In this document: positions 3,301-61,919 of the stretch, in pieces
Position numbering within the stretch: the first letter of the stretch is position 1
How the letters are laid out: each line of letters begins with the position of its first letter
From: Selenomonadales bacterium 4137-cl
GTDB taxonomy: Bacteria > Bacillota > Negativicutes > Sporomusales > UBA7701
NCBI GenBank assembly: GCA_032334055.1
Contig: JAUOZS010000001.1
Location: 966,501 to 1,030,500, forward strand
Length of the DNA: 64,000 bases
Direction of reading: 5' to 3'
Program-made: the position numbers and the translations under genes
The notes under the pieces: model-generated
Database searches by the model: none
Told to the model about the DNA's origin: nothing
The model's input: the letters and a program-made list of their open reading frames with translations, nothing else

Positions 3301-3726
3301 GTCGCCCTCGAAGACTTCACCGGCCAGGTCGAAGTCGTCGTCTTCCCCCGCCTGTTCGACCGGGTAAGCCGCTTCCTCCTGCCCGACGCCGCCGTCGCCG
3401 TCGCCGGGCGCCTGAATGTCAGCGAGGAAACCGTCAAAATCATCGCCGACGACATCGTCCCCCTGGGCTCCGGAGCCCAGCCGGTAAACGGCAAAAAGGC
3501 CGGCGAAGTCCGCCTCCGCCTAGGCGAGGGCCAGGAAACGGACAAAGTCTTCGATCTTCTCAAAAGCGTTTTCGCCCGCCACCGCGGCCAATCGACCGTC
3601 TACCTCCACTTCACCGCCAGCCGCCGCGTCGTCCGTGCCGACCGCCAATACTGGCTCGACCCCACCCCCGAGGCTATAAAAGAGTTGGAAGAAATATTAG
3701 GCCCCGGGACAGTGCAAATAAACTAA
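304..3726 (+). CDS. dnaE: DNA polymerase III subunit alpha
   Basis: Replicative DNA polymerase of 1,140 residues, the usual length for the DnaE1 type. An N-terminal PHP domain (about residues 4-170) opens with HLHNHTEFS. The palm has PGRGSAAGS followed by PDIDIDF, whose Asp397, Asp399 and Asp401 are the catalytic metal ligands. The tau/beta-binding helix-hairpin-helix part lies near residues 780-860 and an OB-fold near 980-1060. There is no embedded 3'-5' exonuclease, so it is DnaE and not PolC. A GGAAA ribosome site precedes the ATG. The very high GC content makes long open frames on the opposite strand, which are not genes. It stands as a single gene after a terminator, and the next gene is convergent. 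Confidence 0.97.
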   Translation: MSNFVHLHNHTEFSLLDGASRVERLVARAKELGMPAVAITDHGTMSGVIDFYKHAVKKGVKPIIGCEVYVAPRSRLEKTTVEGEAYYHLVLLAENAAGYRNLMELVSRAHTEGFYYKPRVDKELLREYHDGLIALSACLAGELPALLLRGDSAGAESLAREYAAIFGPGNFFIELQDHGLPEQKQVTPMLSALAAKIGVGLVATNDIHYIDRQDAESHDVLLCIQTGKTVDDAGRMRFNSSEFYLKSGEEMAALFAAYPEALANTVRIAERCDLSLEFGRLFLPEFPIPAGLTPEEYLRRLCLERMPSRYPAAGQTETDRLDYELSVIGQMGFASYFLIVWDFVNYARQQGIAVGPGRGSAAGSIVAYLLGITNIDPLKYGLLFERFLNPERVTMPDIDIDFCYVRRGKIIEYVIERYGADRVAQIITFGTMAAKAAIRDVGRALNMPYGDVDRIAKLVPGELGITLHRALEVSSELKTLYQADPDIKKLLDLAMSVEGLPRHASTHAAGVVIANEPLTHYVPLQNSSEGFVTTQYDKDRIEEIGLLKMDLLGLRTLTVIGDALALIKDNRGLVIDIDAIPPDDAKTCAMLAAGDTAGVFQMESSGMTNLVKELKPERFEDLIPLVALYRPGPLGSGMVTDFINGRHGRKKVTYLHPLLEPILKDTFGVILYQEQVMQIASVLAGFTLGQADLLRRAMGKKKPEVIAAQRENFMNGAAEHGLSPKLAEEIFNLIAHFADYGFNKSHSAAYALVAYQTAWLKANYPQEFMAALLTSVMGANDKVGFYIEECRHMGIAVLPPDINASSAGFTVDGAAIRFGLAGVKNVGDNAIAGILAVRADGGRFTSLVDFCSRIDMRLVNKRMLESLIKCGAFDSFGWKRSQLLAALDQAAEVAACRQRDRESGQLGLFGDDEGAGADDITPPHLDELPHEELLALEKEMTGFYVTGHPLDKYRETMKSYTAVSLLSSGEYGDGQPVKAAGLVAGAKRITTKSGDMMCFVALEDFTGQVEVVVFPRLFDRVSRFLLPDAAVAVAGRLNVSEETVKIIADDIVPLGSGAQPVNGKKAGEVRLRLGEGQETDKVFDLLKSVFARHRGQSTVYLHFTASRRVVRADRQYWLDPTPEAIKELEEILGPGTVQIN

Positions 3727-7694: not shown

Positions 7695-7732
7695 ATCGTA
7701 TTAAAAACAAATTAAGATAGGAGAGATAACAA

Positions 7733-24636: not shown

Positions 24637-25854
24637 TTACTCTGTCTGACCTGGAGAGTGGGCGTCGTTGCTGGATTCTTCGCTCTGGTTCTCTCTCGTT
24701 TTCTCTGGTTCATTGTCACTAATAGGCACTTTGTTGGCACCCAGCCAGGCCCCCATGATGTCCGCAGCCTGCTTGTCGTGCTCTGGTAGCACATGCACGT
24801 ATAAGTCCAGGGTGGTCTTGATGTTCGCATGGCCCAGGCGCTGCGACACGACCTTTACGTTCACCCCGGAGGCGATCAACTGGGTGGCGTGAGTATGGCG
24901 GAGATCGTGAAATCGGTATCCTTCGAGGCTGCATTGAGTCAGCAGGGCCGAAAAGAGCTTGCCTACCCGCGAAGGAGTAAATTCCTCGCCCTTCCCTCGG
25001 TGGAAGATCAGGTCGTAATTCGGATTTTTCAACTCGCTCAGGGTCTCTATAATGGACTTGTCCACCGCTATTGTGCGGCGCGAGTCGGCTGTCTTTGGGG
25101 AGTCGAGGTGGATACCGCCGGCTACCTCTATTAGGCTATCCTTGACCGTTATTGTGGCCGCCTCTTTGTTGATATGACCCCAGCGCAGCGCCACCAGCTC
25201 GCCGCGTCTCATTCCTGTGGCAAGAGCAAGCAGGACCAAGTAGTAAATGTATCGCTCCTGAGTCTTTCGGCCAATTAGGCCCCTTGCGGTCTCCAGCAGG
25301 AGCTGACACTCCTCTTTATTTAAGACTCCTATATTCGCCTTCTTGCGAACGACCGTGTGGCACATCTCCGACACATTGCGGCTAACAATGCCCTCGCGGA
25401 GTGCTAGGTCGAGGAGGTCGTGAAGGAGAACCCTGTGCTTTGAAACTGTGTTATTGGACAGGCCCTCTGCCAGCTTTCCGCTGAGGTAATCGTTAAGGCG
25501 CGCCGTGGTGAGCTTCTGGACCTTCAGTTTCCCCAGGGCGGGCGTCAGGTGCTGCTCGCAGATTCCCTTGTAGCTATCGTAGGAGGACCGCTTAGTTAGC
25601 TGCTTTTTGGCTTTTAGCCACCTCTCGATCAGGTCCGCAAGGGTTGTGCTAGAGGACCCCACAAGGGACCCCTTGATCTTATCCGCCTTGAACTCGTTAA
25701 GCCTGCGGATTGCCTCCGCCTTTGAGGATGAAGTGAATGTGACGCGCTTTCGGTTTCCACCCGTGTCCCAGCCTGCGTCTACCTGGACCTTAAACTTGCC
25801 GTTAGGTAGCTCCTGGAGGGACCCCTCGCCTTTGGGTCTCCGTTGGGTTGCCAT
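24637..25854 (-). CDS. Phage tyrosine integrase
   Basis: 405 residues. An N-terminal arm-binding AP2-like domain (GKFKVQVDAGWDTGGNRKRV), then a SAM-like core-binding domain, then the catalytic domain with the first Arg in ATGMRRGELVALRWG, His316-x-x-Arg319 in HDLRHTHATQ, His342 in RLGHANIKTT and the nucleophile Tyr352 in LDLYVHV. All catalytic residues are present. The domain order is that of Firmicutes phage and Tn916-type integrases. Start chosen at 25854 because GAGGTGG lies about seven bases upstream. It mediates prophage integration and, with an unidentified directionality factor, excision. Confidence 0.96.
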   Translation of the reverse strand: MATQRRPKGEGSLQELPNGKFKVQVDAGWDTGGNRKRVTFTSSSKAEAIRRLNEFKADKIKGSLVGSSSTTLADLIERWLKAKKQLTKRSSYDSYKGICEQHLTPALGKLKVQKLTTARLNDYLSGKLAEGLSNNTVSKHRVLLHDLLDLALREGIVSRNVSEMCHTVVRKKANIGVLNKEECQLLLETARGLIGRKTQERYIYYLVLLALATGMRRGELVALRWGHINKEAATITVKDSLIEVAGGIHLDSPKTADSRRTIAVDKSIIETLSELKNPNYDLIFHRGKGEEFTPSRVGKLFSALLTQCSLEGYRFHDLRHTHATQLIASGVNVKVVSQRLGHANIKTTLDLYVHVLPEHDKQAADIMGAWLGANKVPISDNEPEKTRENQSEESSNDAHSPGQTE

Positions 25855-25997
25855 AATATACCACCTCTCAGGTGCATCATAGCACATCGACCTTCGTTTC
25901 TCAAGAGGAATCTTGACGGTTGTGGCTCGAAGCCTCCCGGTGCTCATCCATTGAGGCGCGACCTTGAGGATTCCTCCTGGTGGAGAGGAGGTGTCCT

Positions 25998-26464: not shown

Positions 26465-26734
26465 CTACTGTCTAACCTTTTGCACACTCTTTCCGCGAGC
26501 CTGTGAGAGACCATGCCAGGCGGCAGTCCACAGGATACCCGCGAGGATATACTCCAGGAGCCTGGGGGACTTCCCGAAGGCCACGCAGGCAGCCACGGCC
26601 AGGCCAACGCCGAGGACGTACCGAAGAGGCCACGAGGTAATAAAACGGCCCACCGCGACAACCAGGAGTAAAACCAGAAGGCCGTCCGAGAGCATAACGC
26701 CAAGGGCACCCGCGAGACTTCCTAAAATGGTCAT
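26465..26734 (-). CDS. Small membrane protein of the lysogeny region
   Basis: 89 residues with three predicted hydrophobic segments (LLVLLLVVAVGRF, YVLGVGLAVAACVAFG, LLEYILAGILWTAAW) and a basic C-terminus. GGAGGTGA precedes the ATG by seven bases. It is transcribed with the integrase strand and not with the lytic genes, so it may be expressed in the lysogen, for example in superinfection exclusion; that role is inference. No family recognised. Confidence 0.7.
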   Translation of the reverse strand: MTILGSLAGALGVMLSDGLLVLLLVVAVGRFITSWPLRYVLGVGLAVAACVAFGKSPRLLEYILAGILWTAAWHGLSQARGKSVQKVRQ

Positions 26735-26778
26735 TACGATTCACCTCCATAATATGGCAATACTTCGACATGGATAGT

Positions 26779-26825
26779 AAAAGCCCTCCTAATGAGTCCG
26801 TAAGGGATTCGCTAGGAGGGCTTTT
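26779..26825 (-). terminator. Terminator after the ribbon-helix-helix gene
   Basis: AAAAGCCCTCCTA and TAGGAGGGCTTTT form a 13-base stem; an inner GAGTCC/GGATTC helix closes the large loop. It follows the minus-strand gene at 26832 by six bases and has T runs on both ends, so it may act both ways. Confidence 0.85.
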
Positions 26826-26831
26826 CGTGTT

Positions 26832-26987
26832 CTAGCTATTCGATTTCACGTAGTCCGCGAGTAGGCGTCTGATTATCTCAGATGCGTTCACGGCGTCCCG
26901 GTCACAGATCGCGGTGAAAGCATCTTTTTCCTCCTGCGGCAGGCGTATCTTGATTTCAGCGTCTTTCGCTGGCTTCTCCTTCGCCAT
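26832..26987 (-). CDS. Ribbon-helix-helix DNA-binding protein, candidate phage repressor
   Basis: 51 residues, MAKEKPAKDAEIKIRLPQEE followed by KDAFTAICDRDAVNASEIIR and RLLADYVKSN. The alternating basic beta strand (EIKIRLP), helix, NASEIIR turn and second helix are the complete Arc/MetJ/CopG fold. GAAGGAGG precedes the ATG. It is transcribed away from the early genes from a promoter that mirrors the early promoter, so it is placed to control both. Role as lysogeny repressor is inferred from position; no other repressor gene is visible. Confidence 0.8.
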   Translation of the reverse strand: MAKEKPAKDAEIKIRLPQEEKDAFTAICDRDAVNASEIIRRLLADYVKSNS

Positions 26988-27023
26988 AATGGCCTCCTTC
27001 CTGAATATTACTCTTTTAGGATT

Positions 27024-27052
27024 ACTTTACCACATGTGGACACAGAGGGCAA
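27024..27052 (-). promoter_or_regulatory. Leftward promoter of the ribbon-helix-helix gene
   Basis: On the minus strand TTGCCC, 17 bases, TAAAGT. The -10 is embedded in CATGTGGTAAAGT, which is repeated in the opposite direction over the -10 of the early promoter (CAAGTGGTAAAGT, 27104-27116). A CCACATGTGG palindrome lies within the spacer edge. Confidence 0.7.
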
Positions 27053-27087
27053 GCCTGAAGATTTTATTTTTTTTTTGCGGGAAAGTG

Positions 27088-27116
27088 TTGACACAAAGGG
27101 GAACAAGTGGTAAAGT
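27088..27116 (+). promoter_or_regulatory. Host-sigma-A early promoter of the phage
   Basis: TTGACA (27088-27093), 17-base spacer, TAAAGT (27111-27116), preceded by a T-rich tract. It is the only strong host-type promoter before the early genes. The -10 overlaps a candidate operator that is mirrored at the leftward promoter, so one repressor could shut both. Confidence 0.85.
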
Positions 27117-27127
27117 GTAATCAAACA

Positions 27128-27141
27128 GGGAACATGTTCCC
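27128..27141. promoter_or_regulatory. Perfect palindrome in the early leader, candidate operator
   Basis: GGGAACATGTTCCC is a perfect 14-base palindrome a few bases past the expected early transcription start. Its half GGGAACA recurs at 27099-27105 (GGGAACAAGTGG). Confidence 0.6.
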
Positions 27142-27159
27142 ACAAAAGGAGGCTAAACA

Positions 27160-27555
27160 ATGACTCTGAAACAGCTTAAGGCGCTAAAAGCCGCCGCCGA
27201 AGAATTGCACCACGGTTCTATTGAGTATGCCAGGGCGATGTTCACCTACCATTCAGAGGCCGCAGAGTATTGGGAAGGGCGGTATGGGTCTGTTTATAAC
27301 GATGACGAGAAGTGTACCGCCAATTGGAACAAACACAACAAGGCAGCCGGCAAGCTCATGGCCGAGATTAAGCGGAGGGAGGCGAAAACCCTGATACCGA
27401 TTGGCATTGGTCATGTGGTCCGCGCGCTACAACTGGCAGCCTTCGGCCACGCGGAAATTATGGCGATGCGTGAGGCGATGATAACCGGCGACTTCAGTAA
27501 AATCGACTTCGGCGAAGATTGCTTCTATAAGAAGGAGGATGCGGCCAATGGCTAA
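27160..27555 (+). CDS. Early phage protein of unknown function
   Basis: 131 residues, helical and charged, MTLKQLKALKAAAEELHHGS at the start and several aromatic residues (YWEGRYGSVYND). First gene after the early promoter, AAAGGAGG upstream. The position equals that of host-takeover genes of T7-like phages, but no family is recognised. Confidence 0.75.
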   Translation: MTLKQLKALKAAAEELHHGSIEYARAMFTYHSEAAEYWEGRYGSVYNDDEKCTANWNKHNKAAGKLMAEIKRREAKTLIPIGIGHVVRALQLAAFGHAEIMAMREAMITGDFSKIDFGEDCFYKKEDAANG

Positions 27556-27739
27556 GATGCGGGCAGCAGTAGACGACTATTCGGTGTGGGTCTACATTGA
27601 CGAATACCGCTGGGTCTCCTTCGGTCGCCTAGGGAAAGCCGGTCTGTACTGTGGCTGTGTGCTGAGTGAAGCGTCCTGCGGAGTGTTCAAGGACGAGGCG
27701 CGACGGGTTGCGGAGCAAGCACTAGAGGGGAGGGAATAG
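27548..27739 (+). CDS. Small early phage protein
   Basis: 63 residues, MAKMRAAVDDYSVWVYIDEY, with CGC and a later Cys and an acidic C-terminus. It overlaps the previous gene by eight bases; AAGGAGGA precedes ATG 27548. Function unknown. Confidence 0.65.
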   Translation: MAKMRAAVDDYSVWVYIDEYRWVSFGRLGKAGLYCGCVLSEASCGVFKDEARRVAEQALEGRE

Positions 27740-27740
27740 C

Positions 27741-27827
27741 ATGTCGAAACTTAGCGCCATCCGTAAGGGATTCCGCAGGGTCCGCCTGGTATACCGCAAG
27801 TCCGGGCAAATCATCTATCAATGGTAG
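27741..27827 (+). CDS. 28-residue basic peptide
   Basis: MSKLSAIRKGFRRVRLVYRK SGQIIYQW, strongly basic. GGGGAGGGA lies seven bases before the ATG, which follows the preceding stop by one base. It may bind nucleic acid or be a leader; unknown. Confidence 0.5.
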   Translation: MSKLSAIRKGFRRVRLVYRKSGQIIYQW

Positions 27828-28048
27828 GAGGGAAGGAAGATGGCAAACCTTGGGTCTTTAATTACGAAGTCGTGGGCACCAAGTACGAGAACGGCACGGT
27901 TGAAGCTGCAACGGGCAAAGAGGCGGCGGCTCAGGTCCTGAAGGAGGAGGTTGTTTACGCGGGCGGCGGCTGGGAAAGTCGAGTTCTGTTCGAGGGCGTA
28001 GGGAGCAAACGACGGGTAGTCTTACGGGAAAGGCGCGCAGCAGATTAG
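27821..28048 (+). CDS. Small early phage protein
   Basis: 75 residues including WVFNYEVVGTKYENGTVEAA and a basic tail GSKRRVVLRERRAAD. The ATG at 27821 overlaps the preceding TAG (ATGGTAG), suggesting coupling, since no separate ribosome site is visible for it; a later start is possible. Its stop lies inside stem II of the first hammerhead ribozyme. Confidence 0.55.
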   Translation: MVGGKEDGKPWVFNYEVVGTKYENGTVEAATGKEAAAQVLKEEVVYAGGGWESRVLFEGVGSKRRVVLRERRAAD

Positions 28049-28124
28049 TCGAAACCTAGCGGGGTCCTATAGACTCCGCGAAGGTCCGCCAAGGGTTGAC
28101 CGCCTGGCGCTGAGGAGACAGGTC
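28043..28124 (+). ncRNA. Type II hammerhead ribozyme, copy A
   Basis: Read 5'-3': stem II strand GTC (28048-28050), core GAAA (28051-28054), stem III ACCT/AGGT with an extended GCGGGGTC/GACTCCGC helix (28059-28066 with 28072-28079), cleavage base C28086, stem I CGCCA/TGGCG (28087-28091 with 28105-28109), core CTGAGGA (28110-28116), stem II strand GAC (28117-28119). Beyond a 2x2 internal loop stem II continues GAT/GTC (28043-28045 with 28122-28124). Every nucleotide invariant in hammerheads is present. Cleavage would fall between 28086 and 28087. The order with open stem II makes it type II. It fills the gap between an early gene's stop and the next ribosome site. Confidence 0.9.
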
Positions 28125-28144
28125 GAGCGAAAGGATGGGGAGGC

Positions 28145-28630
28145 ATGTATAGAGGCAAGAAAGTACCCGGCCGAAAGGAGTACGTGTATGCCGAGGGGCG
28201 ACTAACCAAGATCGGAGACCAAACGCCGTACTTCTCGATAACTGGCGAGGTTTACCCGACCAAGGCAGACGGAACACGGGACAGAAGGCGCAGTATGATT
28301 GCCTGCGGTTGCATCCATGAGACCATCCTGAAAGCGTGGCCGGACCTGGCGGACCTCGTAGCCCTCCACCTTTCGGACATTGATGGGCAGCCGATGCACG
28401 CCATAGAAAACGGATGGTACTGGAACGGCGGGACGAAATGGCAAGCGTACAAGCGGGAGACCTTAGCGGCACACCTCCGGGTGAGCGAAGAGGAGGCCGA
28501 CCGGGTACACGAGACCTGTACCACTAAGGAGCAATTTGCGGCCTATGTGGAAGCCCAGCGGCCCAGATGGAAGGCCGAGGCTGAGGCGGCAATCGCCAAG
28601 TATGACCTAAAGATCAAAGTGAGTAGATAG
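28145..28630 (+). CDS. Early phage protein of unknown function
   Basis: 161 residues, MYRGKKVPGRKEYVYAEGRL, with CGCIHETILKAWPDLADLV and a helical, charged C-terminal half. GGGGAGG precedes the ATG, 20 bases past ribozyme A, so it would become the first gene of the self-cleaved mRNA. The content (CGC, conserved His/Asp) does not match a family I know. Confidence 0.75.
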   Translation: MYRGKKVPGRKEYVYAEGRLTKIGDQTPYFSITGEVYPTKADGTRDRRRSMIACGCIHETILKAWPDLADLVALHLSDIDGQPMHAIENGWYWNGGTKWQAYKRETLAAHLRVSEEEADRVHETCTTKEQFAAYVEAQRPRWKAEAEAAIAKYDLKIKVSR

Positions 28631-28644
28631 GGAGGAGCGGTAAA

Positions 28645-28914
28645 ATGAAAATTCGCCAAGTAGGAGCCAACATGACCGAGGTACACATACCCGGAGCCAC
28701 CATCCTCTTCAGCTATGAAACGCCAGTAGCCGCGCAGGTGTTTGAGAAAACAGGCGTTAGATACTACAGGACCGAAAAGCGTGGGTCTACCACAACCTCC
28801 AAGCATATCGGGAAATGGCTGGATGGTTGTAAGTTCACCGAGAAGCCGCAAGAGTTCTTTGAGCACCTAGTACAGGTAAAGCCGATGGATGGCCTGATTC
28901 CGGCTTACGTGTAG
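28645..28914 (+). CDS. Small early phage protein
   Basis: 89 residues, MKIRQVGANMTEVHIPGATI, with beta-rich N-terminal half (ILFSYETPVAAQV) and TSKHIGKWLDG, the pattern of small conserved phage proteins that start with a strand-rich 'ILFSYxTPVA' segment. Function unknown. AGGAGCGG upstream. Its stop is four bases before stem II of ribozyme B. Confidence 0.7.
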   Translation: MKIRQVGANMTEVHIPGATILFSYETPVAAQVFEKTGVRYYRTEKRGSTTTSKHIGKWLDGCKFTEKPQEFFEHLVQVKPMDGLIPAYV

Positions 28915-28993
28915 CGCGTCGAAACCTCCTAGACTCTTTCCGTGGGTCTGGAGGTCTACCGAGGGATGGCCTCCCGGTACTGAGGAGACAGGC
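28914..28993 (+). ncRNA. Type II hammerhead ribozyme, copy B
   Basis: Stem II GTC (28918-28920), core GAAA (28921-28924), stem III ACCTCC/GGAGGT (28924-28929 with 28950-28955) extended by AGACTC/GGGTCT, cleavage base C28956, stem I TACCG/CGGTA (28957-28961 with 28975-28979) plus GGG/TCC, core CTGAGGA (28980-28986), stem II GAC (28987-28989), then after a 2x2 loop GC/GC (28914-28915 with 28992-28993). Relative to copy A, three of five stem I pairs and one outer stem II pair change on both sides with pairing kept. Cleavage would fall between 28956 and 28957, 60 bases before the next start codon. Confidence 0.92.
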
Positions 28994-29016
28994 CGAACGA
29001 CGAAAAGGAGGATAAC

Positions 29017-29322
29017 ATGGAAAACCTCGAAAACACCGCCACCGAAACCCCTTGCCATTTCTACGCAGCCACCTGTATGAACTGGGCAACGGCCCCGACT
29101 CGGCAGGAAGCCATTGCCAAGGTAGCCAAGGTCGCCGGCCCTGCTTTTATCCGGGAGCAAGTCAAGCATTGTGGCGGCCTGTATGTGGGTACGGTGAAAG
29201 TCCTATTGTCTGAAGATGCTGACTATGAAATCCGCCTTTTCCAGCCGGTCGGCGTCCCGATGGAGGACGCGAAGGAATACCGGATAGTGGACGCCAGGGG
29301 CTATGTAGTCCCTCTAGACTAG
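29017..29322 (+). CDS. Early phage protein of unknown function
   Basis: 101 residues, MENLENTATETPCHFYAATC, with a central helix TRQEAIAKVAKVAG and a strand-rich C-terminal half. AAAAGGAGG upstream; first gene downstream of ribozyme B. No family recognised. Confidence 0.7.
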   Translation: MENLENTATETPCHFYAATCMNWATAPTRQEAIAKVAKVAGPAFIREQVKHCGGLYVGTVKVLLSEDADYEIRLFQPVGVPMEDAKEYRIVDARGYVVPLD

Positions 29323-29347
29323 TAACCAAAAGGAGGAGGACGAGATT

Positions 29348-29575
29348 ATGGCCGTACACAGTTCCTTTCACTGGCGGAGGCAGGAGGACGCTCCCTCTCT
29401 TACCGTCAGCTTAAACCGGGACAGCGCCGGCAGGGACTATTATTCTGTGACGGTTGAAAATTACACAGAAGACGGCGCAGACAGCGCAACCTTTTACTTG
29501 CGGCCGGAGCAATACGAGGCGTTCCGGGATAACGTCCACGCCGTAGAGATCGAAGACCACCGGAACGAGCGTTAG
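29348..29575 (+). CDS. Small early phage protein
   Basis: 75 residues with alternating strand-like segments (APSLTVSLNRD, YYSVTVENYTEDG, ATFYLRPEQYEAF). AAAAGGAGGAGG upstream. The stop codon opens the long hairpin at 29572. Function unknown. Confidence 0.65.
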   Translation: MAVHSSFHWRRQEDAPSLTVSLNRDSAGRDYYSVTVENYTEDGADSATFYLRPEQYEAFRDNVHAVEIEDHRNER

Positions 29576-29627
29576 GTCCAGCTAGGGACCGTTAGGGACT
29601 CCTTAGCGGTCCTCATGGTAGACCTAA
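29572..29627 (+). other. Long intercistronic RNA hairpin, RNase III-type processing site
   Basis: TTAGGTC/GACCTAA (29572-29578 with 29621-29627) encloses GGACCGTTAGGG/CCTTAGCGGTCC (29586-29597 with 29601-29612), a continuous 12-pair helix with an ACT loop. No T run follows, so it is not an intrinsic terminator. It lies between an early gene stop and the next ribosome site, the position of RNase III sites in T7 early mRNA. No hammerhead core is present. Confidence 0.7.
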
Positions 29628-29663
29628 ATAAGCCCGTGTATATTCGAGAGGAGGCAAAGCATC

Positions 29664-30338
29664 GTGAACGTGATCGAGACCTATAAGAACGACAGGTATT
29701 GTCTGAAGGTCATCCAAGACGAAACCCCGGCGAACCCGCGCGAAGACTTCGACAACCTTGGGACGATGATCGGATTCTCGCGGGACTACGTGATGGGAGA
29801 CAAGCACAATTACTACAGCTATCGCCATTTCCTGGAGTGCATGGCAGCCGAGTATGGCTTCAAGGGCTGGGCAGAGAACGCGAGCGACAGAACCCTGGCC
29901 AGCTTTCTTGAGCGGCACCTTATTATTCTACCCTATTACCTCTACGCGCGAGATGGCCTTGCAATTGCTAACGGCTGGGACTATGACCGGGACGGCTTTC
30001 TGCGTGCTGACGGCTTCCTGTACGTGTCCAAGCAGGCCGTCCGGGAAGAGTGGAAAGTCAAGCGGATAAGCCCCGCCCTTCGAGCGCAAGTCCTGCGCGT
30101 CCTAAAGGTCGAATTTGAGACCTACGAGCAGTACCGCCAGGGCGAGGTCTACGGCTTCATCCTCCACGAGCTAAAGGCGCGGGACTGCCTAGCGTGTGGC
30201 GGGGAAGCAGGCTGTGAGGTCTGCCCGGAGGTCGAAGACGAGGAAATCGACTCCTGCTGGGGATTCTACGGGGACGACCCGAAGGTTAACGGTATGATGG
30301 ACCACTTGCCGGAAGCCGCTCGCGGTCTACTGGGATAG
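29664..30338 (+). CDS. Early phage protein with C-terminal cysteine cluster
   Basis: 224 residues. The N-terminal half includes EDFDNLGTMIGFSRDYVMGD, a segment common in uncharacterised phage and plasmid proteins. Near residue 175 CLACGGEAGCEVCPEV offers a zinc-binding CxxC...CxxC. The end is acidic. GTG start with GGAGGCAAAG upstream. Function unknown; nucleic-acid interaction is possible. Confidence 0.75.
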   Translation: MNVIETYKNDRYCLKVIQDETPANPREDFDNLGTMIGFSRDYVMGDKHNYYSYRHFLECMAAEYGFKGWAENASDRTLASFLERHLIILPYYLYARDGLAIANGWDYDRDGFLRADGFLYVSKQAVREEWKVKRISPALRAQVLRVLKVEFETYEQYRQGEVYGFILHELKARDCLACGGEAGCEVCPEVEDEEIDSCWGFYGDDPKVNGMMDHLPEAARGLLG

Positions 30339-30354
30339 AGAGGAGGGAAGGTCT

Positions 30355-30540
30355 ATGTCCATTCACAAGGTCTATGCTACCATGACCGGACGCGAACAGG
30401 CGGCAGTCGATGAGGCGTTCCGTGCAGCCGCCAGGACTCTTCGCGCGCATGGCCTGCCGGCCACAGGTGATGACCGGGCGGAAATTCTGGTCGAGGCAAT
30501 CGCTGTCTACGCGGAAGAGTCGAAGAAGGCAGGGCGCTAG
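30355..30540 (+). CDS. Small early phage protein
   Basis: 61 residues, helical, MSIHKVYATMTGREQAAVDE with a basic middle and acidic C-terminal helix (EILVEAIAVYAEESKKAGR). GGAGGGAAGG upstream. Unknown. Confidence 0.6.
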   Translation: MSIHKVYATMTGREQAAVDEAFRAAARTLRAHGLPATGDDRAEILVEAIAVYAEESKKAGR

Positions 30541-30543
30541 ATC

Positions 30544-30699
30544 ATGGACGAGGAGAAAATTTACGCCATCCAGCGGACGCAGGGCGGGGCCGTCAAGGTT
30601 GCCTACAGGAGACTTTCAGACGCCGCCCTCCACATGAACTGGGTGAACAAGCGCGCAGGCAGGCGCAGCGTGCGGATCGTCCCGGTGACTCTCAAATAG
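30544..30699 (+). CDS. 51-residue basic early phage protein
   Basis: ATG 30544 to TAG 30699, starting MDEEKIYAIQRTQGGAVKVA, with NKRAGRRSVRIVPVTLK at the end. It starts three bases after the previous stop. Short strand-helix-strand appearance; unknown. Confidence 0.5.
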   Translation: MDEEKIYAIQRTQGGAVKVAYRRLSDAALHMNWVNKRAGRRSVRIVPVTLK

Positions 30700-30701
30700 G
30701 A

Positions 30702-30728
30702 CAAAAGTCCCAAAAAGTATGACTTTTG
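30702..30728 (+). other. AT-rich hairpin after the early gene block
   Basis: CAAAAGTC and GACTTTTG form an eight-pair perfect stem around CCAAAAAGTAT, three bases past the last early stop. It could be a weak terminator or a processing site. The remaining stretch 30729-30813 is AT-rich and may hold a promoter (TATATA at 30800), without a convincing -35. Confidence 0.45.
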
Positions 30729-30813
30729 GTAGATGTTTGCAGGGCTAGAAAAGTAAGACAATTTAGACAGAACTAAATACTAGCAATTTCACGGGTTTAT
30801 ATACGCTGTTATT

Positions 30814-30878
30814 GTCCAGGTAAGTCCGTCTATCCGATAGGCTGACAACTGAACTCCCTACTCAGCACATAACCTGGG
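30814..30878 (+). other. Predicted three-way-junction RNA upstream of the RNA polymerase gene
   Basis: Outer stem CCAGGT/ACCTGG (30816-30821 with 30872-30877) encloses two hairpins: GTCTAT/ATAGGC (30828-30833 with 30837-30842) and CTGA/TCAG (30849-30852 with 30862-30865). Joining segments are AAGTCC, TGACAA and CACATA. It does not match hammerhead, twister or a riboswitch that I know. The terminator at 30899 follows 21 bases later, so it could be the sensing half of an attenuator. Confidence 0.4.
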
Positions 30879-30898
30879 ATGCTTTCCGTTTATTTCCA

Positions 30899-30930
30899 GC
30901 CGGTCCCTTGCTATGGGGCCGGTATTCTTT
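30899..30930 (+). terminator. Terminator immediately upstream of the phage RNA polymerase gene
   Basis: GCCGGTCCC and GGGGCCGGT pair with a TTGCTAT loop, followed by ATTCTTTTTG. It would stop host transcription coming from the early promoter before the RNA polymerase gene starts at 30988. Confidence 0.85.
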
Positions 30931-30987
30931 TTGCGCTTTTGAATGTCGATTTTTGCCATAAATGGTAATAATAAGGAGGCAAAGTGC

Positions 30988-33582
30988 ATGACACAGAACC
31001 AACGCGGACCCGAGGAAATCTATGGAGACCTCTTCACGGAACAGCTACGGCTCGAAGATCACTACAGGGAACTAGCCAAGGCCGCCGCGCAACACGTGAT
31101 CGACTCCGCCAAGGCCGAAATGGCCGCGAGTCAGACAGGTGTAGGCCGGAAGCTAGTCAGTTATGGCTTCGAGGACGCCCTAGCAAACGTCAAGACGTGG
31201 CTCCACGAGACGCTCCGACCTAAGCGAGGCACTAAGCCGGGTTACATCACGATCCTGAAGAAGCTCCGGGACACCTATGAGCACCGCGAGGAGGAACTCC
31301 TGGGTCTCCTCACCGTTGTCCCGCTGTCGGCCCTCATCAACCACATCGCCCGCGATTCGATCATCCTCTCGGACCTGGCGCACATCGTAGCCGGTGAAAT
31401 CCAAGCCGAGGCGCGCATGGAAGCATTTATCAAGAGTATCCCCGAACGGAAAGTCGAGGTCCTCCTAAAAGGCATGGCCGAGCGGGCCGATAGTTACTAC
31501 AAGGCGTATTACGCCCGCCGCACGATGAAGCTAGAGAACTTCGAGTGGTCCCGGTGGGACCCGAAGGACGCCGCCCACATGGCCTTCCAACTTCTGGAGC
31601 TAGTGATCGACGGGTCGGGCTTCTTCGAGCGACACGTCCCCAAGAGCGCCCGAGGCGATGAGCAGCTCGTGGCCGTCCCCACAGATTGGCTCCTCAAGAC
31701 CTGGCAGCGAAACGAGGCGCGGCTCCTTGAGAATGTCTACAGGAATTGCCCGATGGTCATCCCTCCGAAACCTTGGGAGGGCCTGAAAGACGGGGGCTAC
31801 TACGGGACCCTTAACGGCCGCCACTCGCTGCTCAGGAGCGACTCCTTGCGCTACGGAGGGACTCCGAACGCATTTACCAAGGCGTACCTTGAACGGCTCG
31901 AAGAGGTTGACCTGTCGGCGATCAAGCAGGCCGTCAACGCCATCCAGGAGACCCCCTGGGCCATCAACAAGGAAGTCCTGGCCGTGGTCGAGGAGATTGC
32001 CCAGCGAGGGGGCGAGATCGGGGATATCCCGCGTATGGACAAGCTCCCGCAGCTCCCGGAGCTAACCGGGGACTTCACCGAGGAACAACTCAAGGAGCAC
32101 CGGAAGAAAAAGTGGGAGATATACAAGAAAGACATAACCAGGGCCACCCTGGCCGCCCGCACCTTAGCGAACCTCAAGACGGCGAGAGCCTTCGCTAAAT
32201 ATGACCACATCTATTTCCCTCATAATATGGACTTTCGGGGCCGGGTCTATCCGATTCCCTCCTTCGGTCCGCAGGGCGACGATGTGACGCGAGGTCTGCT
32301 CCTCTTCGCCGATCCCCCAGCCTGCAATTCAATGGAAGACATTGAGTGGCTCATGGTCCACGGGGCGAACCTGGCAGGGATCGACAAGGTGTCCTTCGAG
32401 GATCGCAAACAGTGGGTCCGGGATAACGAGAAGCATATCCTTGCGAGCGCCGAGGACCCTCTAGGATACCTCTGGTGGGCCGAGCAAGATGACAGCTCCA
32501 TTCAATTTCTGGCGTTCTGCCTGGAGTGGGCGAAGTGGAAAGCATGGGAAAAAGCGCACGGAACTCCCGATGGCTTCGTGACTGGGATTCCTGTGGCGTT
32601 CGATGGCACGTGCTCCGGGCTTCAGCACTATAGCGCCCTCCTCCGGGACCCCGTGGGTGGCGCGGCCGTAAATCTCGTCCCCGACGATCACCCGCACGAT
32701 ATCTATCAAGAGGTGGCCGATAAGGTTATCGAGCTACTGAAGCGGGACGCCATCCACGGAACTATCGACGAACCGAAGACGGCCCAGGACGGGACTCCCT
32801 ACATTAAATATGGCACAAAAAGTCTGTCTCAACAGTGGCTCGCCTACGGGGTTACTCGCAAGGTCACGAAGAGGTCCGTCATGACGCTTCCCTACGGCAG
32901 CCGGGAGTATGGCTTCCGGGACCAGATTCTGGAGGACACCATTAAGGAAGCCCTTAAGGACGGCCGGGGCGGGATGTTCGTGGCTCCCGCTCAGGCGGCC
33001 GGCTACATGGCCCGCCTCATCTGGGAGGTCGTCCAGCAGGTGGTCGTCAAGGCGGTTCACGGGATGAACTATCTCCAAAAGCTCGCCCGGATGGTCTGCA
33101 AGCGGGGTCAAGTGATTACCTGGACGACACCTATGGGCCTTCCGGTGCAGCAGGCGTACATGGAGGAGAAGACGCAGGAAATTCGGCTCCGGCTTCACGG
33201 TGCAATCAGGCGGAGACTCTTTGCCACACAGGCGACCGGCAACATCAAGAAAACCGAGCAAGTCTCCGGGATAGCTCCTAACTTCATCCACTCCCTGGAC
33301 GCCGCCCACCTCCAGCTCACGGTCCTAAACGCCAACGAGAAGGGCATCAAGCACTTCGCGCTCATCCACGACTCCTACGGGGCACCTGTGGCACAGGCAG
33401 GGGAGATGTTCCAGACCGTCCGTGAGGCGTTCCTCCAGCTCTACACTGAGCATGACCCGCTCGGCACCTTCACGAGTGAGATGGGCATCTATCTCGAAGA
33501 GGCAGACGAACTTCCTCCGCTTCCCCGGCAGGGCAAGCTGAAAATTGAGGAGGTCCTAGAGAGCCTTTACATGTTCGCCTAG
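30988..33582 (+). CDS. Single-subunit DNA-dependent RNA polymerase, T7 gp1-like
   Basis: 864 residues (T7: 883). Contains DFRGRVYPIPSFGPQGDD, DGTCSGLQHYSALLRDP with catalytic Asp539, RKVTKRSVMTLPYGS with Lys628 and Tyr636 (equivalents of T7 Lys631 and Tyr639) and IHDSYG with Asp795 (T7 Asp812). All catalytic residues are kept, so it should be active on phage-specific promoters; I could not identify a repeated promoter sequence for it. ATG 30988 has AAGGAGG upstream, better than the start 45 bases earlier. Terminators flank the gene on both sides. Confidence 0.97.
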   Translation: MTQNQRGPEEIYGDLFTEQLRLEDHYRELAKAAAQHVIDSAKAEMAASQTGVGRKLVSYGFEDALANVKTWLHETLRPKRGTKPGYITILKKLRDTYEHREEELLGLLTVVPLSALINHIARDSIILSDLAHIVAGEIQAEARMEAFIKSIPERKVEVLLKGMAERADSYYKAYYARRTMKLENFEWSRWDPKDAAHMAFQLLELVIDGSGFFERHVPKSARGDEQLVAVPTDWLLKTWQRNEARLLENVYRNCPMVIPPKPWEGLKDGGYYGTLNGRHSLLRSDSLRYGGTPNAFTKAYLERLEEVDLSAIKQAVNAIQETPWAINKEVLAVVEEIAQRGGEIGDIPRMDKLPQLPELTGDFTEEQLKEHRKKKWEIYKKDITRATLAARTLANLKTARAFAKYDHIYFPHNMDFRGRVYPIPSFGPQGDDVTRGLLLFADPPACNSMEDIEWLMVHGANLAGIDKVSFEDRKQWVRDNEKHILASAEDPLGYLWWAEQDDSSIQFLAFCLEWAKWKAWEKAHGTPDGFVTGIPVAFDGTCSGLQHYSALLRDPVGGAAVNLVPDDHPHDIYQEVADKVIELLKRDAIHGTIDEPKTAQDGTPYIKYGTKSLSQQWLAYGVTRKVTKRSVMTLPYGSREYGFRDQILEDTIKEALKDGRGGMFVAPAQAAGYMARLIWEVVQQVVVKAVHGMNYLQKLARMVCKRGQVITWTTPMGLPVQQAYMEEKTQEIRLRLHGAIRRRLFATQATGNIKKTEQVSGIAPNFIHSLDAAHLQLTVLNANEKGIKHFALIHDSYGAPVAQAGEMFQTVREAFLQLYTEHDPLGTFTSEMGIYLEEADELPPLPRQGKLKIEEVLESLYMFA

Positions 33583-42033: not shown

Positions 42034-42101
42034 TGTTTGAGTTCTGTTTTGCGATCTTTGCCTACCTCCTCGGCGCGGCCATGGGAAGGTGGACAGCCTA
42101 A
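42033..42101 (+). CDS. 22-residue membrane peptide
   Basis: MFEFCFAIFAYLLGAAMGRW TA. Its ATG overlaps the previous stop (TAATG) and its own stop overlaps the ligase start in the same way, so it is read by coupling. Single hydrophobic helix; unknown. Confidence 0.5.
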   Translation: MFEFCFAIFAYLLGAAMGRWTA

Positions 42102-43012
42102 TGGACTTCTTGGCCCTGACAGGGCGACCCAAGGACAAGTTCATCCAGTTTGCTCTCGACTTCAACAAAGTGAAACACCCGGAGCGCCTTACGTTTCCTC
42201 GACTCGCCTCGGAGAAGATCGACGGTGTATTCTGCCTGGCTCACAGGCACGAAGGTGACGTGACGATTTACTCACGAACAGGCGAGGTCTATACCTCCAT
42301 GAGGCACATCGAGGAGGCCCTCAAGGACATCCTGGAGGATGGCGAGATCGTTATCTTCGAGGCGTGTGGGCCGATGGGGACCCCGCAGCCGGTCGTCAGT
42401 GGCTGGTGTCGGGACACCAAGGAACAACACCCTGAGCTGATGGCGGGCTGTCACGACTACATCTACATCAAGGAGTTTTTGCATGGAGGCCACGTGCTCT
42501 ATCACCGGCGACACGCCATCTTGAAGGCGTGCGTTGATAACTGGCGCGCCTTCAAGGCCACCAAGGCAACCTACTGGACCCTCTTCTGCATAGCTCAGAA
42601 GCCTGTAGTGTCCCTCGACGAAGCCAAGGCATACGCCGAGGAAATATGGGCAGGTGGTGGTGAGGGCGTCGTTCTGCGGAACCCTGACGCCGTGTACCAA
42701 CCGGGCAAGCGCAACGATGACATCATCAAGATCAAGAAGGGCGTCTCGTATGACCTGGAGGTCGTGGGCCTGAAGGAAGGCAAGGGCAAGTACAAGGATA
42801 CCCTCGGGACCCTCGTGTGTCGCTGGAAGGATGGCAAGACAATCGAAATCAGCGGCATGACGGACGAGCAGCGGCGATGGTGGTGGAAGTATCCCCACAT
42901 GATCGTTGGTAAGGTTGTCCAGGTGGATGCCATGTGCGAATCCTCCAAGGGCCTGCTGCGGGAGCCGAGATTCAAAGGGCCGCGCTGGGATAAAGAAAAG
43001 GGGGACTTCTGA
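42101..43012 (+). CDS. ATP-dependent DNA ligase, T7 gp1.3-like
   Basis: 303 residues. Adenylation motif EKIDGVF with Lys39, DGEIVIFEACG (motif III/IV), EGVVLRNPDA and DDIIKIKKG (motif V), then a small OB domain. Short phage ligase type. In T7 the gene follows the RNA polymerase; here it lies between polymerase and exonuclease. An in-frame GTG 12 bases upstream is possible, but the TAATG coupling favours 42101. Confidence 0.93.
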   Translation: MDFLALTGRPKDKFIQFALDFNKVKHPERLTFPRLASEKIDGVFCLAHRHEGDVTIYSRTGEVYTSMRHIEEALKDILEDGEIVIFEACGPMGTPQPVVSGWCRDTKEQHPELMAGCHDYIYIKEFLHGGHVLYHRRHAILKACVDNWRAFKATKATYWTLFCIAQKPVVSLDEAKAYAEEIWAGGGEGVVLRNPDAVYQPGKRNDDIIKIKKGVSYDLEVVGLKEGKGKYKDTLGTLVCRWKDGKTIEISGMTDEQRRWWWKYPHMIVGKVVQVDAMCESSKGLLREPRFKGPRWDKEKGDF

Positions 43013-60110: not shown

Positions 60111-61919
60111 TTGTCGGATTATAATGCACAGATAACCTACGCAACGGATGGGTCCCAGACGACCTTTTCGTTCCCGTTCGATTATCTGCGAAAAACTTTC
60201 ATATACTGCACCTCGAATGGTGTCGCGCTAGTCTATGGGACTCACTACACGGTCCTTGACAAAGAGGTGGAATTTGCCTCCGCGCCTGCTGCGGGAACGC
60301 TAAGGATACAACGAAGAACCTCGACGGACCCCCTTGTATCGTGGGCGGACGCTTCCGTGCTGCGCGCCCTCGACTTGACGGTGTTCGAGGTCCAATGCCT
60401 GCATCTAGCGGAGGAAACAGCAGATGCGGTGAAAACGGATACGGCCGACCTCGCAGAGGAGGCAGCAGCCTCTGCGGGGGCAGCAGCGTCCTCGGCCAGC
60501 GAAGCAGCAGCCTCTGCGGGGGCAGCAGCGTCCTCGGCCAGCGAAGCAGCAGCCTCTGCGGGGGCAGCAGCGTCCTCGGCCAGCGAAGCAGCAGCCTCTG
60601 CGGGGGCAGCAGCGGCTGAAGTGGCTACCGCCATTGCGAATATAAAGCCTCCGCCCGGCCTCACTAATTACATCGCTAGTGGCCGCAAATTTACCGTGGG
60701 TGCTGACCTCAACCTCTCGATCAGCGCCGGAGTAGATTCCATTAGTGGGATAACGGTCGAGCGTGAAGTTGGTACAATCGCCCTCCACCCCCGCCGCGCA
60801 CAGCTTCTTTACGATACCAAGGCCGGGACAACCGGGATAATCGACGCTACTTTTCCTACTGCTGACGCGGGGACGGTCTGCCGATGGGATTTGTCAAACT
60901 GGGATGGCGTCAGTCAAATTCCATCAACGGCGGGCGCCAACAATCTTATTCCCAACGGTGCTTTGACGCGAGAAGTCGGGTGGGCTGGCGATTACGCCAT
61001 AAAGGGTAATGGCAGTAGTGGGTATTTGGTCAGCGCCAACAGTACCGGATTTCCCACTGGCAATAACCCTGTTGAATTGATAATACCCACTACCTACGCC
61101 AAAGGAAACGCAGACTATACGCTAATTGGTGGGTATGGAGTCAACTCGGCGAATGGTTTTTATATTTATACCGCCGCTGACAACCAGATATATATAGCGG
61201 CTGGCGGTAATATTCCGACTGGATTTTTTCCCGACGAGACGAAATACGTTTTTACGTTATCCCATGACGGCACAACTCTGCGATTGAGAGCCAACGGCCA
61301 AGTAGTTTATTCCGCTCCAGCCACCCTTAACATTACTGCAACACCGTTAAGTATTTTTAGGAACGGAGTACTTACCGGCTATTATAAAGGGGTTATCGAC
61401 TATATTGAACTCCGTAACGCTCCCTGTACCGCTGCCGAAATTGCCGCAATATCAAACGCGCTGTTACTCCCATGCCGGTATTACCCCAGCCCCGCCATAA
61501 ACGAGTATACGGATATATGTTCCGTCCTTCCGGCTGACGCCATATCCCTTGGATTTGTTCGTACCGGCACAACTGCACCACTTGAATCCAATGGCATCGA
61601 TTATAAATATGGCCGGCGCGAGGGGGCTGTGGGAGGCAATCGTAGAGTATTTTTGGGGAGAGTGTATGCGTCAGGAACCGGAACTCCTGTGCCGTTTATC
61701 AACCCATTCGGGACGCGGAAGTTTCACCCACGCTTCACGTGGGCAGCCGATTCCGAAGGTACAGGAGAGTGCGGTGTTGCGGCCCCTTACGTTTACATCA
61801 TAGGCGACCCAAACCCTGATAAAATTATCGTCTATTGTAGCGCCACTGGCTGGGCGAACGTAGCCTTCTCATGGAAAACCTCGGGCCATATTGGTTGCTA
61901 CGCGGAGGTGTTTGATTAA
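60111..61919 (+). CDS. Tail fibre protein, T7 gp17-like N-terminus with a different C-terminal domain
   Basis: 602 residues. Residues 1-110 are the T7 tail fibre attachment domain (ITYATDGSQTTFSFPFDYLR, VLRALDLTVFEVQCLHLAEE). Residues 118-168 are Ala/Ser repeats encoded by perfect 42-base repeats. The C-terminal part contains a concanavalin/laminin-G-like domain (TLSHDGTTLRLRANGQVVY, YYKGVIDYIELRNAPCTAAE) and a distal tip. DNA after about 60,950 is visibly more AT-rich than its neighbours, suggesting exchange of the receptor-binding part. TTG start with GGAGAGGA upstream. Confidence 0.9.
   Translation: MSDYNAQITYATDGSQTTFSFPFDYLRKTFIYCTSNGVALVYGTHYTVLDKEVEFASAPAAGTLRIQRRTSTDPLVSWADASVLRALDLTVFEVQCLHLAEETADAVKTDTADLAEEAAASAGAAASSASEAAASAGAAASSASEAAASAGAAASSASEAAASAGAAAAEVATAIANIKPPPGLTNYIASGRKFTVGADLNLSISAGVDSISGITVEREVGTIALHPRRAQLLYDTKAGTTGIIDATFPTADAGTVCRWDLSNWDGVSQIPSTAGANNLIPNGALTREVGWAGDYAIKGNGSSGYLVSANSTGFPTGNNPVELIIPTTYAKGNADYTLIGGYGVNSANGFYIYTAADNQIYIAAGGNIPTGFFPDETKYVFTLSHDGTTLRLRANGQVVYSAPATLNITATPLSIFRNGVLTGYYKGVIDYIELRNAPCTAAEIAAISNALLLPCRYYPSPAINEYTDICSVLPADAISLGFVRTGTTAPLESNGIDYKYGRREGAVGGNRRVFLGRVYASGTGTPVPFINPFGTRKFHPRFTWAADSEGTGECGVAAPYVYIIGDPNPDKIIVYCSATGWANVAFSWKTSGHIGCYAEVFD
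60462..60611 (+). repeat. 42-base perfect tandem repeats in the tail fibre gene
   Basis: Unit begins GCAGCAGCCTCTGCGGGGGC and ends CGGCCAGCGAA; copies at 60462-60503, 60504-60545 and 60546-60587 are identical, and a fourth is partial (to 60611). Each encodes AAASAGAAASSASE, 14 residues in frame, so copy number changes would alter fibre length without a frameshift. Confidence 0.93.

Follow-up and report, generated by a model that had tools for sequence, protein, structure and literature searches.

Does the early transcript of a T7-like prophage cut itself between genes? In the window (the whole 64-kb stretch of DNA analyzed here), we identified two predicted type II hammerhead ribozymes, copies A and B, with two early genes between them. 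From the sequence and modeled folds, we hold with considerable confidence that copy A belongs to the type II hammerheads, that it and copy B form a pair within the early operon of this prophage, and that copy A would likely cleave the early transcript, in cis, at a point between genes.

Hammerheads of this type in phages, and the idea that they process mRNA, are already known from other prophages. Perreault et al. (2011, PMC3088659) describe type II hammerheads, their pseudoknot and clusters that flank prophage genes, and propose that processing of long phage RNAs yields mRNAs the length of an operon or a gene. Type II activity was shown there, and three tandem arrangements cleaved in vitro (one of them also in E. 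coli). A 2017 review links prokaryotic hammerheads with phages and calls their biological role an open question (PMC6155905), and a 2020 review reports all three hammerhead types in prokaryotic and phage genomes (PMC7761336).

Prophage and early operon

The prophage encodes an integrase, T7-type RNA polymerase, primase-helicase, SSB, DNA polymerase, connector and capsid, which bears out the claim of an earlier note on this DNA that copy A lies in the early operon of a T7-like prophage. The early gene block, with ORFs starting from 27160, is located 5' of the RNA polymerase gene, and T7-type replication and structural genes are present. The main features are listed here (loci compared with the window carry L numbers).

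24637-25947, minus strand: phage integrase family protein
26832-26987, minus strand: small ribbon-helix-helix protein with a homologue in L262 (53% over 43 aa)
27088-27116, plus strand: sigma-70-like promoter, possible early promoter (TTGACA-17-TAAAGT, TG before the second hexamer; consensus match only)
27821-28048, plus strand: early ORF, 75 aa; its stop codon shares 1 base with copy A
28145-28630, plus strand: early ORF, 161 aa, phrog_17696; starts 58 nt after the predicted copy A cut
28645-28914, plus strand: early ORF, 89 aa, phrog_5643; stops 3 nt before copy B
28918-28999, plus strand: predicted type II hammerhead copy B
29017-29322, plus strand: early ORF, 101 aa; starts 60 nt after the predicted copy B cut
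30899-30923, plus strand: intrinsic-terminator-like hairpin at the boundary between the early genes and the RNA polymerase gene (consensus match only)
30988-33582, plus strand: T7-type RNA polymerase; likely start 30988, longest ORF from 30943

Copies A and B flank the 161-aa gene (with a homologue in L131, 57% over 134 aa) and the 89-aa gene on the gene strand, and each occupies the gap from a stop codon to the ribosome-binding site of the following gene. Sigma-70-like promoter sites number two in the region, compared with 2.6 expected in shuffles, and terminator-like sites seven, compared with 5.6; neither kind exceeds what chance would produce.

Other features of the region were also identified. 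A palindrome (GGGAACATGTTCCC, 27128-27141) directly follows the promoter-like site, within a 19-nt stretch common to L262 (18/19). Because this stretch and the ribbon-helix-helix gene both have L262 counterparts, they are likely an operator and the gene for its repressor. A very stable hairpin between runs of A and T (26780-26825), the strongest local fold in the scanned interval 26700-31100, is possibly a terminator. Between early genes 29348-29575 and 29664-30338 there is a long near-perfect hairpin with an internal-loop region and no U tract (29572-29627), which could be an RNase III site in the same operon as both hammerheads. About 220 nt of non-coding sequence with predicted structure, ending in the terminator-like hairpin (30700-30925), directly precedes the RNA polymerase gene, and attenuation or antitermination of polymerase expression is possible there. 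By eye, a terminator-like hairpin also precedes the polymerase gene in L130 and L131. Repeats at 60453-60631, within ORF 60111-61919, weakly match several unrelated Rfam families.

Structure of the two hammerheads

The invariant core of hammerhead ribozymes consists of CUGANGA, GAAA, the A15.1-U16.1 pair and H at position 17. By direct reading, copy A spans 28048-28129 on the plus strand, 3' pseudoknot tail included, in the order GUC-GAAA-stem III-U-C, predicted cut, stem I-CUGAGGA-GAC. Its parts are as follows.

28048-28050, plus strand: stem II, 5' strand GUC, pairing with GAC at 28117-28119 (3 bp)
28051-28054, plus strand: core GAAA (12-15.1 in the customary numbering)
28054-28085, plus strand: stem III hairpin (inner 4 bp, A/GA internal loop, distal 8 bp)
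28086, plus strand: the base we take to be C17 by hammerhead numbering; predicted cleavage 3' of it, between 28086 and 28087
28087-28109, plus strand: stem I hairpin CGCCA/UGGCG with a 13-nt loop
28096-28101, plus strand: loop I pseudoknot strand UUGACC, which can pair with 28121-28126
28110-28116, plus strand: core CUGAGGA
28121-28126, plus strand: 3' tail pseudoknot strand GGUCGA, which can pair with loop I

Base 28048 doubles as the final base of the upstream TAG stop codon. Inner stem III pairs 28054-28057 with 28082-28085, A15.1-U16.1 being among its four pairs, and the distal helix pairs 28059-28066 with 28072-28079. The stem I strands are 28087-28091 and 28105-28109 (5 bp). Copy B has the same plan, with a predicted cut between 28956 and 28957, core at 28980-28986 and a pseudoknot of 28967-28971 with 28991-28995. 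In both copies the canonical core bases are complete, stems I and III are closed and stem II is open, and the descriptor allows a loop I/tail pseudoknot of up to 6 bp; most type II hammerheads have one of at least 4 bp.

The earlier note had called copy A a type II hammerhead with helices in the order II-III-I-II and perfect inner pairing in all three. The order, which defines type II, is as claimed, and the assignment is supported by core, topology, predicted pseudoknot and paired changes in relatives. Stems I to III are complementary, but stem III is not a single perfect helix. Because loop I can pair with 28121-28126, a pseudoknot absent from that note, the motif, given there as 28043-28124, should extend to about 28129. 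The predicted cut does fall between two genes as proposed, namely ORFs 27821-28048 and 28145-28630.

Nested minimum-energy folds favor other structures: with the pseudoknot uncounted, the full hammerhead is 2.3 (A) and 2.8 (B) kcal/mol worse, and in four sequences the best nested fold is more stable than the hammerhead fold by 0.4-3.9 kcal/mol. The pseudoknot duplex is worth about -5 to -7 kcal/mol, a figure whose sum with nested energies is only indicative. Nested folds of longer pieces containing copy A and copy B differ and lose stem I.

Scores and number of copies

Applied to both strands of the 64-kb window, the hammerhead descriptor matches copies A and B and nothing else. With stem III set to at least 4 pairs it found copy B and missed copy A, and the limit was then set to 3. 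A window of this size offers many hairpins that might fall into such an arrangement by chance, but 100 mononucleotide shuffles of one strand gave no descriptor match, and there are two copies and relatives with paired changes; we give chance almost no credence.

The earlier note had proposed a search of the window with the Rfam hammerhead II model. Copy B scores 40.4 bits (RF02276), over the cut-off of 37, but copy A, at 29.6 bits (E 9.9e-4 for the genome), falls short of it. These are the sole matches to this Rfam model at E <=0.001 in the 4.5-Mb genome, with 150 of 2326 first-look candidates scored. We built a covariance model (R1) from four sequences, namely copies A and B, one L126 copy and one L131 copy; it gives copy A 91 bits, copy A being part of the model by construction. 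With filters off, R1 shows no third copy in the window, the next match after A and B having 13 bits.

The start of a small ORF at 27743-27830 (ATGTCGAAACTTAGCG, GUCGAAACUUAGCG...) resembles the 5' half of copy A. A decayed third copy was rejected there, as no CUGANGA follows and R1 (filters off, E up to 10) lists nothing at this place; we judge the resemblance to be chance.

Relatives of the prophage

Among cultured phages, the best-placed polymerase matches (Vibrio phages) have 38.7% identity over 97% of the query, and all 2594 matched records are below 60%. Homologues among genome and metagenome proteins reach 67%. The polymerase as a single-sequence query found no relative on viral contigs; such relatives came up when an alignment of 26 homologues was the query. 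We searched 107 loci with R1 at default filters (the best 80 of 594 viral-contig relatives and 27 genome-contig loci), many of which hold little upstream DNA, where absence means little. At E <=0.001, copies were identified in L126 (two), L131 (two) and L130 (one), and the L130 copy sequence is also present in genome G035 (L262). Three of these are outside the R1 training set (L126 3467, L131 7730 and L130 1618). All five are in early operons, upstream of the polymerase gene and on its strand; the L131 copy at 7730 is 2.2 kb from that gene, and the other four are within about 1.1 kb. Further copies beyond two each were not found in the whole L126 and L131 records.

With the Rfam model, hammerheads in L126 (41.8 bits) and L130 (37.1 bits) are over the cut-off and both L131 copies are under it (nine loci searched). 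At the Rfam gathering level, the L262 hammerhead is the sole match in eight polymerase-family loci including L262. The second L126 copy (3467-3546) has CCGAUGA in place of CUGAUGA, and this one changed core base suggests that it is possibly weakened or inactive.

In a polymerase tree of 31 rows, hand-picked from 101 extracted sequences (L158 and L133 being absent from those extracted), the window, L126, L262, L131 and L263 form a clade (SH-aLRT 98), and four of the five carry the motif. No copy was found in L263, which has about 11 kb upstream (R1 with filters off, best 11.3 bits). Because L263 is without a copy and the second L126 copy has an altered core, the element can apparently be lost or decay.

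The motif extends beyond this clade. Among 380 genomes of the host's class, the window's own included, five have the polymerase at E <=1e-50 and 14 give a covariance-model match. Twelve of these 14 are without a polymerase at that level, so the motif is not restricted to T7-like phages. When the early region was compared with phage records by megablast, nothing matched, and distant blastn of copy B gave partial matches only (E about 3). A stem I/loop pattern matched 10 viral stretches, of which the descriptor confirmed L233 (same record as L131) and L237 (same record as L126) only. The covariance model added L242 (57.5 bits), and the remaining seven score at most 16.8 bits.

Conservation and paired changes

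Comparison with relatives reveals paired changes in stem I, stem III and the pseudoknot. In the four-sequence alignment, 8 of 23 pairs are changed on both sides (shuffled mean 3.9, one of 500 shuffles as high) and 94.5% of cells are paired, compared with 25-44% when partners are slid by 1-3 columns; this alignment and that of seven sequences are small, and the structure was drawn from the same sequences. The inner pseudoknot pairs are GACC/GGUC in copy A, GGCC/GGCC in copy B and AGCC/GGCU in L126 and L131. With seven sequences, 97.1% of pseudoknot cells are paired and two of five pairs are changed on both sides, a count also reached in 66 of 500 shuffles; the pseudoknot covariation score was reached in 3 of 500. 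In the three divergent copies, MAFFT placed stem I and the cleavage site one column off, and the seven-sequence alignment was therefore counted for stem II and the pseudoknot only.

We compared window positions 27001-31000 with relatives by blastn (E <=0.01). For positions 1-4100 of L126, the nearest relative readable for early-operon DNA, there are two matches only: the longer runs from copy B through the next start codon ATG (28918-29019, 82% identity), and the other joins part of copy B to the second L126 motif. L131 matches at two places: 28307-28476 within the 161-aa gene (71%), and from copy B to 29016 (79%). L262 matches a 45-nt part of copy B and 19 nt at the early promoter region, and L263 has no match to this interval. 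Thus, the ribozyme and ribosome-binding site are kept while most neighboring genes differ.

Could the hairpins be decayed or inactive hammerheads, or be kept only as stabilizers of mRNA ends? Copy A is below the Rfam cut-off, the second L126 copy has its altered core, and the prophage itself may be defective. However, core bases are intact in both window copies, and copy B is 85% (L126) and 79% (L131) identical to its counterparts, with changes that are often paired, amid genes most of which have no nucleotide match. We consider either reading very unlikely.

Placement relative to genes in viral contigs

A loose type II pattern matched at least 120 stretches on viral contigs, so that the frequencies given here describe the matches listed and are not estimates for all phages. 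Full-descriptor instances (169 distinct) occur in 87 of 120 stretches, and 33 hold none at those limits. We left out 20 instances less than 400 nt from a locus end and counted 149. ORFs were called naively, the pattern favors one stem II, and instances from the same phage are not independent.

Among these matches, a stop codon (ORF of at least 50 aa) lies within 60 nt upstream of 136/149 instances (opposite strand 46/149, random places 199/745), and a start lies within 60 nt downstream of 103/149 (37/149 and 211/745). Both are present for 94/149 (13/149 and 75/745), and 11/149 fall within an ORF of at least 150 aa (22/149 and 228/745). The stop codon is at most 3 nt away in 97 of the 149 candidates; GUCGAAA without a hammerhead, taken from the same loci as a control, abuts a stop in 2 of 115. 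The distance from predicted cut to next start has a median of 58 nt (quartiles 50.5 and 228.5, n=147). Copy A follows this rule (1-nt stop overlap, 58 nt from cut to start), as does copy B (3 nt past the stop, 60 nt). A pseudoknot of at least 5 bp is possible in 49% of the 169 listed instances, compared with 10% when tails are shuffled, and 50 of the 169 have none of at least 3 bp.

Motif counts in the five richest loci among the matches listed are 6, 7, 7, 8 and 9, and most ORFs of these arrays are followed by one motif. Three of the five (L018, L040 and L063) have copies that pass the Rfam cut-off, and the other two (L055 and L070) have none. Four of ten multi-copy loci (L046, L055, L057 and L070) are without a hammerhead over this cut-off, and the motifs there are supported by the descriptor alone.

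A broader proposal is that type II hammerheads are a standard punctuation cassette of phages (stop codon, ribozyme, ribosome-binding site, start), with up to nine per operon giving one-gene mRNAs. In this proposal, the stop codon abuts or shares bases with the first ribozyme strand, so that a ribosome terminating there would hide stem II and GAAA and translation of the upstream gene would gate the cut; the cassette would serve also as a seam for swapping early genes. We regard this proposal, gating included, as rather doubtful.

Predicted processing of the early transcript

Intercistronic processing by predicted cleavage is the best reading of the hammerhead pair. Copies A and B would cleave in cis during transcription and yield three products: a 5' message, an 870-nt bicistronic message (28087-28956, with the 161-aa and 89-aa genes) and a downstream message. 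The 3' end of each upstream product would consist of the stem III hairpin and a single further base, which would bear a 2',3'-cyclic phosphate. Downstream products would begin with the stem I hairpin and pseudoknot, carrying a 5'-OH 58-60 nt before the start codon, and the hairpins may protect both product ends. The ribozymes would thereby do, without protein, what RNase III does for T7 early mRNA.

Alternatively, active ribozymes could mainly destroy or down-regulate the mRNA, with degradation of the 5'-OH product switching the operon off or rebalancing its cistrons. The host's class, likely Negativicutes, contains Pectinatus, which is listed under Bacillota, and RNase J-type enzymes are common in Bacillota. 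RNase J1 of B. subtilis degrades the 5'-OH RNA that glmS self-cleavage leaves (PMC3328962, PMC11780869); hammerhead cutting could thus destabilize downstream mRNA in a glmS-like manner. However, the downstream product is predicted to retain its ribosome-binding site and to be paired from its first nucleotide, and a 5' end of this form would be expected to hinder an RNase J1-type enzyme. Further, repeats after most genes of the arrays in five viral loci look like separation rather than a switch, and Rfam at its cut-offs identified no riboswitch in the window. Destruction as the main function is therefore unlikely in our judgment.

Two copies that bracket two genes could also free the segment between them for ligation or circularization into circular mRNAs or small RNAs, and a hammerhead can in principle ligate its own ends. 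The ligase gene at 42089-43012, the one scanned, best matches DNA ligase families. Perreault et al. raised this idea, and they did not detect spliced or circular products (PMC3088659). Such a fate seems highly improbable here.

Comparison with known systems

The predicted ribozymes resemble RF02276 and the hammerheads described by Perreault et al. (2011) in their core, open stem II, closed stems I and III and pseudoknot, and also in their prophage setting, gene-flanking clusters and proposed processing of long transcripts. Unlike RF02276 generally, stem III is longer here (distal 8 bp in A), and copy A is under the cut-off. The T7-like RNA polymerase lineage is not named in the accessible text of PMC3088659. 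We found no earlier report of hammerheads in T7-like phages among the literature matches listed, as judged by title and start of abstract and with subscription literature thinly covered. What is new is this lineage, within that scope, and the sharper placement rule.

RNase III cuts T7 early mRNA at five sites (PMC4858673), and the comparison with T7 drawn in the earlier note is sound. Both phages have a polycistronic early transcript, cut sites between genes (predicted here) and a single-subunit RNA polymerase. However, the predicted cutter here is the RNA itself, and the predicted ends are 5'-OH and 2',3'-cyclic phosphate rather than the 5'-phosphate and 3'-OH left by RNase III. The T7 polymerase gene is in the early transcript, whereas here a terminator-like hairpin precedes it. 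The glmS ribozyme, as described in the sources cited above, is likewise self-cleaving, lies 5' of a bacterial ORF and leaves a 5'-OH product; it differs in fold and from the intercistronic placement here, where there is no sign of ligand dependence.

Given that its cousin T7 uses RNase III on the equivalent transcript, a T7-like phage offers a clean case for asking whether ribozymes take the place of a host nuclease. The spacing rule, in which a stop codon abuts the ribozyme and a start is often found about 58 nt past the predicted cut, makes both processing and translational gating directly testable.
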